Of a stretch of 64,000 nucleotides of DNA, positions 1-64,000 are shown piece after piece (position 1 is the stretch's first letter; every line of letters begins with the position of its first letter). Source of the stretch: Flexivirga endophytica (GTDB taxonomy: Bacteria > Actinomycetota > Actinomycetes > Actinomycetales > Dermatophilaceae); contig NZ_BMHI01000005.1 in NCBI RefSeq assembly GCF_014640635.1, positions 248,001 to 312,000 on the forward strand. The letters run 5' to 3'. A model generated the notes under the pieces. That model saw only the letters and a list, made by a program, of their open reading frames with translations, did not search any database and was not told the DNA's origin. A program made the position numbers and the translations under genes.

Positions 1-668
1 CCGGGTATGTCGAGCAGAAGTCGTCACACACCCCCCGCGACGGCCAGCCGAAGCGGCTGTTCCAGGCACTCGACCACATCGTCGGCAACGTCGAGCTGGG
101 CCACATGGACGAGTGGGTCGAGTTCTACAACCGGGTCATGGGGTTCGTGAACATGGCCGAGTTCATCGGCGACGACATCGCCACCGACTACTCGGCGCTG
201 ATGAGCAAGGTCGTCGCCAACGGCAACCACCGGGTGAAGTTCCCGCTCAACGAACCAGCGATCGCCAAGAAGAAGTCGCAGATCGACGAATACCTGGAGT
301 TCTACCGCGGCGCCGGTGCCCAGCACCTCGCGGTGGCGACCGGCGACATCATCAAGTCGGTGGATGCGTTGCGCGCCAACGGTGTTGAGTTCCTGAACAC
401 CCCGGACAGCTACTACGAGGACGAGGAGTTGCGCGCCCGCATCGGTGAGGTGCGCGTGCCCGTCGAGGAGCTGCAGAAGCGCGGCATCCTGGTCGACCGG
501 GACGAGGACGGCTACCTGCTGCAGATCTTCACCAAGCCACTGGGCGACCGTCCGACGGTGTTCTTCGAGCTGATCGAGCGGCACGGCTCGCTCGGCTTCG
601 GCAAGGGCAACTTCAAGGCGCTCTTCGAGGCGATCGAGCGCGAGCAGGACAAGCGCGGCAACCTCTAA
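1..668 (+). CDS. hppD: 4-hydroxyphenylpyruvate dioxygenase, 3' part
   Basis: Converts 4-hydroxyphenylpyruvate to homogentisate, the entry step of tyrosine breakdown. The gene starts outside the window; 221 C-terminal residues remain, read in the frame beginning at base 3. The three iron ligands of the family are visible: His in ALDHIVGN, His in QHLAVAT and Glu in FFELIER. The glycine-rich C-terminal segment [10 protein letters not shown] that closes the active site follows. It belongs functionally with fahA and hmgA a few kilobases downstream. A 16-bp hairpin follows the stop codon. The identification is secure; only the N-terminal domain is unseen. Confidence 0.97.
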
Positions 669-736
669 ATAGGCTTCGGATCGCGCCGGACGTCGTCGTA
701 CGCCCCCTGTACGGCGTGCGGTGCGGTTCGTAAGAG

Positions 737-773
737 CATCGGCCACGACTGCTTCTGGCAGTCGTGGCCGATG
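737..773 (+). terminator. hairpin terminator after hppD
   Basis: A perfect 16-bp inverted repeat (737-752 with 758-773, 5-nt loop) lies between the stop of hppD and the stop of the convergent methyltransferase gene. There is no T-tract, as is common in actinobacteria. It may serve both strands. Confidence 0.75.
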
Positions 774-800
774 TCATGCTGCGGCGGTCGGTGTCGGCGA

Positions 801-1649
801 TCAGCGCGCTGCCGTGAACACCCGCGCGAGGCCGGGCAGGGCATATCCGGCGCCGTCACGAAAGCGCTCCGCACGCTTCTCGATCTCGCCGCGCAGCTGT
901 GCCCGAGTGCCCTGGCTCTGCGCGCGCAGAGCCATCGAGATCGGGCCTGCGAAGTCGCTCACCCACGACCACAGGTCATCCGGGTCGGTGAACCGGTAGG
1001 TCAGTGGGACGTCTTGGACCGAGGTCGCGGTGAAGCCGGCATCGCGCGCCAGTTGATGGGTGCCGTCCTCGTCGGCGAGTGCGAACATGTTGGGCTGCCC
1101 AGGTGCGGGCGGCTGGAACAAGCCGTGCTCGGCCAGGACGGACCCGGGAAGCATGAAGAACGGATTCGCCGCGGCCGCTGCGAACACCGCGAAGACGAGG
1201 CGTCCGCCGGGTCGCAGCACACGGTCGGCCTCCCGCAGGCCCTGCAACGGGTCGGGCAACAGCATGTAGATCCATCGGGCCGCCACCCGATCGACACTGT
1301 CGTCCGCGAGCGTGAGGGCGGTGACGTCCAACTGCTCGAACGAGATGTCCAATCTCTTGCCGTAGGAACGCCGTTCGGCCGCCGCGACCATCTGCAGCGA
1401 GAGGTCTCCGGCGCGGACGGTGCCGGCGAATCCTGGCCGCTCAGCCACTGCTGTCGCTATGTCTGCCGTCGGTCCGCACGCGAGCTCGACCACCGTGTCG
1501 GTGTCCCGTGGTGCGAGAGCCTCGACCATCGCGTCGGTCAGCGGGCGGGTGACGCCGGCGTGCCACTCACCCCTGGCGTCCCACTCGGCCGCGACGGAGT
1601 CCCACATGCCTTCTGCATCGAACCCCATCGGGGTGTCGTCTGTCGTCAT
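801..1649 (-). CDS. class I SAM-dependent methyltransferase
   Basis: A 282-residue putative methyltransferase of unknown substrate. SAM motif I is DTVVELACGP at about residues 51-60, and an acidic motif II and a UbiE-like LRPGGRLVFAVF strand follow, which is the order seen in class I Rossmann methyltransferases. An ATG 15 bases upstream (1664) is also possible; 1649 is preferred because GGGCAGG precedes it. A TAGCGT box on the minus strand (677-682 of the second kilobase, i.e. 1677-1682) could be its -10. It converges on hppD. Nothing nearby indicates the substrate. Confidence 0.8.
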   Translation of the reverse strand: MTTDDTPMGFDAEGMWDSVAAEWDARGEWHAGVTRPLTDAMVEALAPRDTDTVVELACGPTADIATAVAERPGFAGTVRAGDLSLQMVAAAERRSYGKRLDISFEQLDVTALTLADDSVDRVAARWIYMLLPDPLQGLREADRVLRPGGRLVFAVFAAAAANPFFMLPGSVLAEHGLFQPPAPGQPNMFALADEDGTHQLARDAGFTATSVQDVPLTYRFTDPDDLWSWVSDFAGPISMALRAQSQGTRAQLRGEIEKRAERFRDGAGYALPGLARVFTAAR

Positions 1650-1744
1650 GGTCCTGCCCGTCATACGAATCAGTCGACGCTAGCACCGGTTCGCTGACCG
1701 GCGGCCCTATTTGCAGCTGACCGAAGGTGCTGTGCGGCCGCACG

Positions 1745-2047
1745 TCACGAGCTGCGCTGCATCTCCCACGCCTGCCGCAACGCGTGTTGTATGGCGCCGC
1801 TGTCGCCATACAACATCGCTTGCACCTTCATGTGCGCGTCGTAGCTCGGCGGTACGCCGAAGGTGTCCGGATGATCGGTCACGAGCCGCTCGCGCACGTC
1901 GAACGCACAGCGGATCATCAACTCGTCGGAGGCGATCAGGCGTGCGACGATCCGATTGTCGACGTACCAGGCGGGGACCGCACTGGTGCCCTTGCGCTTG
2001 CAGCCGGGCAGTGTCACGAGGAACTCGGCGACCTCGTCGGGCGTCAT
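1745..2047 (-). CDS. MmcQ/YjbR-like protein
   Basis: A 100-residue protein resembling the MmcQ/YjbR family (CyaY-like fold, sometimes annotated as DNA-binding). The typical pattern is an early LPGCKRKGTSAVPAWYVD segment, a central IRCAFDVRERLV strand, then a DTFGVPPSYDAHMKVQAML stretch. It is shorter than most members, so the family call is tentative. It starts 6 bases after the stop of the DUF2269 gene and is probably co-transcribed with it. Its 3' end contains a perfect 12-bp inverted repeat (1785-1815). Confidence 0.6.
   Translation of the reverse strand: MTPDEVAEFLVTLPGCKRKGTSAVPAWYVDNRIVARLIASDELMIRCAFDVRERLVTDHPDTFGVPPSYDAHMKVQAMLYGDSGAIQHALRQAWEMQRSS
1785..1815. repeat. 12-bp inverted repeat carrying GTATG/CATAC
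   Basis: Bases 1785-1796 (TGTTGTATGGCG) are the exact reverse complement of 1804-1815, with a 7-base spacer. It lies inside the last codons of the MmcQ/YjbR-like gene and can form a hairpin in its mRNA. Each arm contains one copy of the pentamer that is enriched across the window. Confidence 0.8.
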
Positions 2048-62714: not shown

Positions 62715-62801
62715 CTCAGTGGTGTCTCAGCCCGGGGCTGTCCTGGGCGCCGTTCGGAACTATGGGTCGTCGTGGATGTGCAACGTTCATCGGTCCCACC
62801 G

Positions 62802-62837
62802 TTTCATATCGTGGAAGATAAGTTTCGACACACGGAA
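62802..62837. promoter_or_regulatory. two TTTC-N7-GGAA boxes upstream of the NCS2 permease
   Basis: TTTC-N7-GGAA occurs at 62802-62816 and again at 62823-62837, 21 bases apart, about two helical turns. They lie 88-123 bases upstream of the permease start and 120-155 upstream of ispG. They look like a tandem operator. Confidence 0.55.
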
Positions 62838-62861
62838 GGGTGGCACGAGTCACATCGGCCG

Positions 62862-62876
62862 TCAACAGTTTGTTGA
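62862..62876. promoter_or_regulatory. 15-bp palindrome in the NCS2/ispG gap
   Basis: TCAACA-GTT-TGTTGA is a perfect dyad, 81 bases upstream of ispG. Its arms resemble those of the dyad before hup. Function unknown. Confidence 0.5.
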
Positions 62877-62956
62877 ACATTGCGGGACGACCAGGCTGCA
62901 CCATGGCCCGCGTGACCACGTTCGGATCGACGGGGCCGGCGAGTCATACTGAAGGG

Positions 62957-64000
62957 GTGACTGTTTCTCTCGGTATGCCGAGCGCCCCGGCGCCGGTGCT
63001 CGCTCCTCGTCGCAAGTCTCGCAAGATCAAGGTCGGCAAGGTCGAGGTCGGCGGAGATGCTCCCATCTCGGTGCAGTCGATGTGCACCACACCGACCACT
63101 GACATCAACGCGACCCTGCAGCAGATCGCGGAGCTCACCGCGTCAGGCTGCGACATCGTGCGCGTTGCCTGTCCGAGTCAGGACGACGCCGACGCGCTTC
63201 CGGCGATCGCCAGGAAGTCGCAGATCCCGGTGATCGCCGACATCCACTTCCAGCCGAAGTACGTCTTCGCCGCGATCGACGCCGGCTGCGCGGCGGTCCG
63301 GGTCAACCCAGGCAACATCCGCAAGTTCGACGACCAGGTCAAGCAGATCGCTCAGGCAGCCAAGGACGCCGGCGTGTCGCTGCGCATCGGCGTCAACGCG
63401 GGCTCGCTCGACAAGCGACTGCTGGAGAAGTACGGCAAGCCGACGGCCGAGGCGCTCGTCGAGTCCGCGGTCTGGGAGGCGAGCCTCTTCGAGGAGCACG
63501 ACTTCCACGACTTCAAGATCTCGGTCAAGCACAACGACCCCGTCGTGATGGTTCGCGCCTACGAATTGCTGGCCGAGCGCGGCGACTGGCCGTTGCATCT
63601 CGGTGTCACCGAGGCCGGGCCGGCGTTCCAGGGCACCATCAAGTCGGCGACGGCGTTCGGCGCGCTGCTGTCCAAGGGCATCGGCGACACGATCCGCGTC
63701 TCGCTGTCGGCGCCGCCGGTCGAGGAGATCAAGGTCGGCAACCAGATCCTGCAGTCGCTCAACCTCAAGCCCCGCAAGCTCGAGATCGTTTCGTGCCCAT
63801 CGTGCGGCCGCGCCCAGGTCGACGTCTACACGCTCGCCGAGCAGGTGACCGCCGGCCTCGAGGGTATGACGGTGCCGCTGCGCGTCGCGGTCATGGGTTG
63901 CGTCGTCAACGGCCCGGGGGAGGCTCGGGAAGCTGACCTCGGTGTCGCGTCGGGCAACGGTAAGGGTCAGATCTTCGTCAAGGGTGAGGTCATCAAGACC
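62957..64000 (+). CDS. ispG: 4-hydroxy-3-methylbut-2-enyl diphosphate synthase, 5' part
   Basis: Penultimate step of the MEP isoprenoid pathway, an Fe-S enzyme. The first 348 residues are in the window; the gene runs off the right edge with only some 30-40 residues expected to be missing. [39 protein letters not shown] is the TIM-barrel start. Three iron-sulfur cysteines are visible: two in [12 protein letters not shown] and one in [12 protein letters not shown]. The GTG at 62957 follows GAAGGG, with a CATACT box 7 bases upstream. It is separated from dxr and rseP by the accessory block. Confidence 0.95.

Follow-up and report, generated by a model that had tools for sequence, protein, structure and literature searches.

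An abundant non-palindromic octamer in Flexivirga endophytica and its relatives, possibly a self-recognition word for DNA exchange

The window and its word

We describe a short DNA word in a stretch of 64,000 nucleotides of Flexivirga endophytica (family Dermatophilaceae; assembly GCF_014640635.1, contig NZ_BMHI01000005.1, positions 248,001 to 312,000), which is referred to as the window. The stretch belongs to a genome of 4.72 Mb in 13 contigs (G000) and lies on contig C5; labels beginning with G, L and C denote genomes, loci and contigs, respectively. The word is a non-palindromic octamer, GTATGNCG, reading CGNCATAC on the other strand, with seven letters fixed and one free. Its visible part is GTATG/CATAC, the pentamer that the original prediction, made by scanning the letters, took for the word itself. 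The features of the window are as follows.

5..63871, plus strand: GTATGNCG, 51 copies by exact pattern scan, starting at 5, 1789, 4561, 5787, 7901, 7961, 9366, 10545, 12029, 13479, 14240, 16376, 16631, 18244, 19596, 19834, 21787, 22933, 24650, 25280, 29324, 29728, 30510, 31060, 33242, 34553, 34580, 35255, 35399, 36247, 38010, 40020, 41367, 43378, 45994, 46111, 46430, 47051, 50560, 52708, 55474, 56089, 56882, 58571, 60850, 61125, 61511, 61589, 62313, 62973 and 63864
1659..62595, minus strand: CGNCATAC as read on the plus strand, 52 copies by exact pattern scan, starting at 1659, 1804, 3095, 4821, 5430, 6638, 8188, 9500, 9725, 10831, 11620, 14984, 15473, 16324, 16756, 18024, 18537, 20058, 20670, 22256, 22995, 26324, 29173, 29641, 30967, 32081, 33001, 33854, 33996, 35817, 36508, 37013, 37691, 39050, 41029, 41648, 42427, 44788, 45620, 46567, 48121, 48829, 49828, 50774, 52265, 53935, 55759, 59375, 59930, 61168, 62159 and 62588
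26332..29172, no strand: longest copy-free stretch of the window (2.8 kb), holding a predicted gene at 26632-27243 that is HU-like by eye from its translated start
17939..19471, plus strand: glutamyl-tRNA synthetase (GltX) gene (Pfam tRNA-synt_1c) with octamer copies at 18024, 18244 and 18537; our anchor for synteny and for taxonomy, its named relatives placing the genome in Dermatophilaceae as defined by GTDB

A recount of the window gives 65 GTATG and 60 CATAC, next to 20 CTATG plus CATAG and 33 GATAC plus GTATC, in fair agreement with the hand counts given with the prediction (65, 59, 15-20 and about 25, respectively). All 17 positions named there hold one of the two pentamers within 2 bp; thirteen fall inside the octamer and four (19607, 29740, 35791 and 54048) outside. 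The real unit is nevertheless eight letters long. When letters are numbered from 0 at the first G, 91% of the GTATG occurrences in 430 kb of the same genome have C at position 6 and 88% have G at position 7. Of the 125 pentamers in the window, 103 lie within the octamer; in 799 kb of the genome, this is true of 1403 out of 1581. GTATG/CATAC outside the octamer occurs there 2.2 times per 10 kb, compared with 3.4 for GATAC/GTATC and 2.3 for CTATG/CATAG, and is not enriched (125 observed, 190 expected, rank 406 of 512 pentamers). No flanking AT tracts were found around GTATGNCG.

Over-representation against codon-preserving nulls

The genome holds 8019 copies of the octamer, 4048 forward and 3971 reverse, while a reversed control word occurs 642 and 607 times; the enrichment thus extends well beyond the window. 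Within the window, two nulls were built from 64 predicted genes with 300 shuffles each, and CATAC/GTATG ranks first of 512 strand-merged pentamers in both. Genes contain 109 pentamers, compared with 44.7 +- 5.9 when protein and codon usage are kept and 55.5 +- 5.0 when the two bases neighbouring each codon are kept as well. Five of the six pentamer and phase classes exceed the first null, the exception being CATAC in phase 0 (2 observed, 2.7 expected). The octamer is above expectation in all six combinations of phase and strand in 404 kb. In the same 404 kb, 655 coding copies face 108.6 in a shuffle keeping protein, codon supply and both neighbouring bases, and the density is similar in coding and intergenic DNA (1.80 and 1.63 per kb, the latter from 65 copies in 39.8 kb). 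Because the motif's own codons feed this null, its expectation is inflated. With motif codons masked, 749 predicted genes (721 kb) hold 1240 copies where 26.3 are expected, an enrichment of about 47-fold. A codon or codon-pair preference is ruled out by these shuffles, and the earlier suggestion that something acts on DNA itself agrees with enrichment in all phases, on both strands and in coding and intergenic sequence alike. A maximal-order Markov model of the window hardly reveals the signal (125 observed, 103 expected, rank 42 of 512), we think because the word itself makes its neighbouring tetramers common.

One-letter variants of the octamer are, in sum, at background (1372 observed, 1328 expected; 749 genes, masked null). 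Some are depleted, namely GTATGNTG (1 against 9.7), GCATGNCG (199 against 246) and the GTCTG-type GTCTGNCG (96 against 132), and others are in excess, namely CTATGNCG (49 against 28), GTACGNCG (195 against 145) and GTAGGNCG (78 against 48). If only exact copies were advantaged, one-letter variants would stay near background at equilibrium, as their summed count does.

Words with GTAC and CATG are scarce in this genome. In the 749 genes, none of the 512 pentamers is depleted as strongly as CGTAC/GTACG (549 observed, 1036 expected; loci L001-L017 and L147-L166 and the window), and GGTAC, GTACA, CATGC and CATGG are depleted in the window too, as might result from restriction avoidance of GTAC and CATG. 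This depletion raised the idea that deamination of GTACG or GCATG to GTATG is the main cause of the word. We reject it, since letters 7 and 8 of the unit must in addition be C and G and since GTACGNCG is in excess, even though GCATGNCG is depleted.

Strand, orientation and spacing

Across 38 stretches of the genome, the octamer is found 718 times on one strand and 685 times on the other, a balance tighter than chance (chi-square 13.0, 38 degrees of freedom) and without relation to GC skew, which served as a proxy for origin and terminus. Copies are also more evenly spread than random ones (variance to mean ratio of 0.80 in 2-kb bins). Adjacent copies alternate: 845 pairs have opposite and 520 the same orientation (p 1e-18). 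Among pairs within 400 bp, same-strand ones are reduced (326 observed, 493 expected), whereas convergent (285) and divergent (287) pairs each exceed the expected 246. The coefficient of variation (CV) of same-strand gaps is 0.757 in three contiguous runs totalling 424 kb, compared with 0.993 +- 0.037 for random places and 0.921 +- 0.030 for permuted orientations. In 799 kb, the starts of any two copies are at least 10 bp apart. Opposite-strand pairs are in excess at 20-300 bp without any preferred distance; we take this excess to be an effect of islands on the expectation. Since same-strand copies repel each other at short range and opposite-strand copies do not, each strand in the source genus seems to be spaced for itself, and the putative reader of the word seems to sense its direction. 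Compensation is suggestive only: in ten overlapping genome pairs, a copy gained no more than 200 bp from the place of a lost copy has the same orientation in 56 cases and the opposite one in 33.

Alternation recurs in same-genus relatives (181 same, 314 opposite, p 2e-9; regions partly orthologous), in Knoellia (21 and 50, with a same-strand gap CV of 0.50; five orthologous regions, not independent), in G071 (78 and 128, p 6e-4) and in G007 (102 and 141, p 0.015). Other relatives speak against a general spacing rule. The difference is below significance in Humibacillus (24 same, 38 opposite) and in Terrabacter/Terracoccus (21 and 24) and weak in G008 (28 and 35) and in 18 other rich loci (97 and 114). 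Close same-strand pairs are not rarer in G042 (19 same, 13 opposite within 400 bp), and same-strand gaps in G007, G071 and G072 are no more even than random places, perhaps due to copy-free islands. For the related word GTACGNCG, alternation is not shown: the raw excess in G072 (174 same, 247 opposite) stems from 58 overlapping pairs at the palindromic GTAC core, without which the counts are 174 and 189 (p 0.46), and G043 has 26 and 27. For a further word, CGAAGGGG, 51 same and 77 opposite pairs (p 0.027) are suggestive only. The case for direction sensing is accordingly weaker across the wider family.

Conservation of sites

Orthologous genes were compared with four genomes of the same genus and two neighbouring genera, all comparisons sharing the sites of the window. 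The octamer is intact at 35/73, 29/63, 24/43, 26/65, 12/38 and 15/37 sites, while words of like composition are intact at fractions of 0.33, 0.27, 0.30, 0.28, 0.19 and 0.21 in the same six comparisons; in a word-poor genus, it is kept at none of 12 sites. Where all amino acids are conserved, the motif codons are all identical in 22/41, 15/34, 20/31, 16/33, 9/22 and 9/19 cases, and the same codons elsewhere predict 3.8, 2.9, 2.7, 2.6, 1.5 and 1.5. This sums to 91 against 15, about 6-fold, over comparisons that share the window's sites. Octamer sites turn over, yet they are retained well above the same codons elsewhere.

Copy-free stretches

The longest octamer-free stretches of the genome measure 13.9 kb (contig C10) and 9.4 kb (contig C7):

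L018 (contig C10, 19 kb), copy-free part of 13.9 kb: integrase-type transposase, C5 cytosine methylase, DUF2726 protein and a large ATPase with weak AAA/STAND-like matches
L015:354-9770 (contig C7), 9.4 kb: copy-free integrated element with phage-type integrase and HTH_17 protein

The first is a mobile element that may hold a restriction or defence island; the rest of contig C10 holds 3 octamer copies. The second adjoins a gene that by eye resembles the C-terminal part of UvrA. On these two examples only, mobile DNA is without the octamer. The next copy-free stretches, of 4.5 and 4.3 kb, showed no mobile character, and one of 3.2 kb resembles, by eye, ribosomal S12-S7 and EF-G.

Distribution in the family and other words

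We regarded a genome as word-bearing when the octamer reached a density of at least 0.2 per kb and at least twice the control word. This holds for 48 of 89 family genomes and 30 of 53 genera. By eye, none of 58 genomes from other families of the order passes the threshold, nor does any of the 391 non-family genomes in a phylum-wide draw of 396, in which three of the five family members are enriched; the sets of 58 and 391 overlap.

Some relatives prefer other words. Among 78 family genomes, GTACGNCG is strong in eight (G027, G028, G043, G051, G057, G072, G079 and G083), at 0.94-1.81 per kb and 3.8-11.9 times the control, and all eight are low in GTATGNCG (68-556 copies). Eleven further genomes have GTACGNCG at 2.1-3.7 times the control and 0.39-0.55 per kb, ten of them without GTATGNCG, which may reflect either weaker use or a high background. 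One genus contains both words, GTATGNCG in G029 and GTACGNCG in G072. CGAAGGGG, unrelated in sequence to GTATGNCG and equal on both strands (loci L118-L119, L203 and L228-L230 in G040), is strong in four of the 78 (G040, G041, G076 and G077; 15 to 27 times the control), which belong to two genera (g37 and g38). Janibacter loci (L049, L053 and L064) carry 36 copies of it in 65 kb. It could be either a third dialect or, as all four genomes have RecC, a Chi-like word in its own right. Flanks vary as well: the extended form is about GTATGCCGYG in G071, CGTATGCCGT in Knoellia and CGTACGNCGYC in G072. Beside GTATGCC words, 40 kb of Nostocoides jenkinsii (G063, L126-L127) are also enriched in CCAACTC/GAGTTGG (13 against 1.4).

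Possible function of the octamer

We hypothesize that GTATGNCG is a genome-wide self-recognition word, comparable in action to the DNA uptake sequences known from Neisseriaceae and Pasteurellaceae and read by a DNA-exchange machine of the family. We put the probability of this at about 0.48. The family's machine would favour DNA that bears the octamer in exact form, and exchange occurring again and again between relatives would raise the word to its high, spaced-out density. The machine would most likely be natural transformation through a Tad/Flp pilus, ComEA and ComEC, and the reader a motor or receptor that senses word direction. We infer all three parts, that is, the role of the reader in uptake or exchange, the Tad pilus as a channel and the direction-sensing motor or receptor. 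The proposal that the word works like an uptake sequence, read directionally, is drawn from how dense it is, from its equal use of both strands, from its dialects, from its confinement to one family and from its lack in mobile DNA. These are uptake-sequence features according to PMC3630211, PMC7811141 and PMC1939737 and, for mobile elements, PMC7371117, where word distribution serves to find such elements. Over-representation equal on both strands, dialects among relatives and scarcity in mobile DNA (two stretches) are all present here. The DNA uptake sequence (DUS) of Neisseriaceae is likewise a short word with dialects in related species, confined to one family and present in thousands of copies (kingDUS nearly 6000 in 2.4 Mb, PMC3630211). 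In our view, an uptake-like word is the best supported of the functions offered by the original prediction. A requirement of transformation for Tad/Flp pili and ComEC is reported for another actinobacterium, Micrococcus luteus (PMC4322843).

Several observations weigh against this hypothesis. No excess of one-letter variants, usual in uptake sequences, accompanies the octamer, whereas one-letter-divergent copies of DUS are considerably more numerous than exact ones (background not subtracted) and one such variant in Neisseria retained an efficacy of 90% (both PMC3630211). Uptake in Haemophilus influenzae is independent of word orientation (PMC1939737), but spacing here is orientation-specific. 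The uptake signal sequence (USS) of that species also differs in that it forms close inverted pairs; the octamer has neither starts closer than 10 bp nor the flanking AT tracts. The USS is reported to be distributed less evenly than a compaction site would need. At the thresholds used, 27 of the 78 family genomes are without any of the three words, although ten of these have GTACGNCG at 2.1-3.7 times the control, and the word-poor G005 keeps none of four sites, a small number. ComEC is present in 77 of the 78 genomes, missing only in G037 (word-rich, 760 contigs), and TadE in 76, missing only in the word-poor G010 and G069; the word cannot be tied to ComEC or TadE because both are nearly universal, word-poor genomes included, and the presence of ComEC fails to discriminate rich from poor. 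The comEA-comEC neighbourhood looks alike in ten rich and ten poor genomes, with several loci having wrong-strand gene calls (calls on 3.8-kb loci are unreliable) and no family-level search aimed at ComEA. Of the markers for a classical type IV pilus, N_methyl occurs in 2 and PilM_2 in 4 of the 78 genomes, and both are without a match in the source genome, where divergent pilins could escape; the host, mostly without this pilus, differs in this respect from DUS bearers, and the classical pilus, its families being absent from nearly all genomes, is an unlikely channel. One exceptional locus with both markers lies in G029:C2 near 210147-215489. None of ComEC, TadE, N_methyl, PilM_2 and RecC follows the distribution of the word in the 78 genomes, and among these families neither a gene that tracks it nor its reader was found.

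The main rival is a Chi-like recombination word, in which broken DNA would be degraded by some helicase-nuclease distinct from RecBCD, such as AdnAB, up to the first correctly oriented octamer. Such a word would require copies at regular distances on each strand, and the even same-strand gaps and the alternation of adjacent copies suit it. So does the exactness of the octamer, in which a single letter is free, together with its enrichment in resident DNA and its absence from two mobile stretches; species variants of Chi are also known (PMC8022716). The same source names polarisation on the leading strand as a property and criterion of Chi sites, whereas our strands are over-balanced and unrelated to GC skew. 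The octamer is also about 8 times denser than Chi of Escherichia coli (one per 5 kb, PMC8022716), and RecC, found in 33 of the 78 genomes, occurs in 13 of the 39 word-rich and in 20 of the 39 word-poor ones, AdnAB and AddAB not having been searched for. RecBCD-Chi itself is unlikely, as RecC presence is not associated with the word, and we consider the broader Chi-like explanation rather unlikely.

A modified or mutation-driven word, made or protected by a modification enzyme or biased repair, would resemble the cyanobacterial highly iterated palindrome HIP1 (GCGATCGC), another abundant octamer of one lineage whose function is unsettled. The penultimate A, as in the strand CGNCATAC, has the shape of sites of one-strand methyltransferases, and the strong depletion of GTACG and of the variants GTATGNTG, GCATGNCG and GTCTGNCG would fit such a process. 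But variants are at background in sum and some (CTATGNCG, GTACGNCG and GTAGGNCG) are in excess, so that no one source word has been exhausted; a mutational process would not be expected to give orientation-specific spacing; and the octamer is not palindromic. HIP1 is palindromic and tied to methyltransferases, and exceptional cyanobacterial strains carry other HIP words (PMC4390886). We regard this explanation as improbable, and a methyltransferase site alone, one of the functions originally offered, does not explain a 47-fold enrichment. Least of all do we expect a chromosome-organising site for an FtsK-like translocase or a nucleoid protein, similar to FtsK-orienting polar sequences (KOPS). 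The polarity of the octamer, its one free letter and a spacing that in this genome is more even than chance would be appropriate for it. However, confinement to one family, some members of which use different words, is not, and the octamer lacks the origin-to-terminus strand skew of KOPS and SpoIIIE recognition sequences (SRS), judged by the GC skew proxy. Lack of a link to GC skew makes a chromosome-organising site, also among the early guesses, unlikely in its replication-oriented form.

Returning to the uptake-like hypothesis, we do not file the octamer as a member of the known uptake sequences because of its Gram-positive host with a Tad pilus, the missing excess of one-letter variants and the apparent sense of orientation; repulsion between same-strand copies also sets it apart from DUS. 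With more hesitation, we suggest that it could represent a new class of self-recognition word, read directionally by an actinobacterial translocase or receptor unrelated to the minor-pilin receptors of type IV pili, with at least two, perhaps three dialects in one family; this proposition is tentative. No paper on uptake words in Actinobacteria was found in the open-licence literature. Among the matches listed, a text search for the word returned only plain 8-letter strings in seemingly unrelated sequences, and a search on this family returned none on it by title.

The literature consulted reports uptake words from Neisseriaceae and Pasteurellaceae, two Gram-negative families. If our hypothesis is true, then DNA exchange guided by a sequence tag evolved anew in Gram-positives, by way of another pilus, the word gives a hook for finding its reader, and the switch of words within a genus presents a natural experiment. 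If the Chi-like explanation is true instead, the family would gain a Chi-like word and likewise a reader to find.

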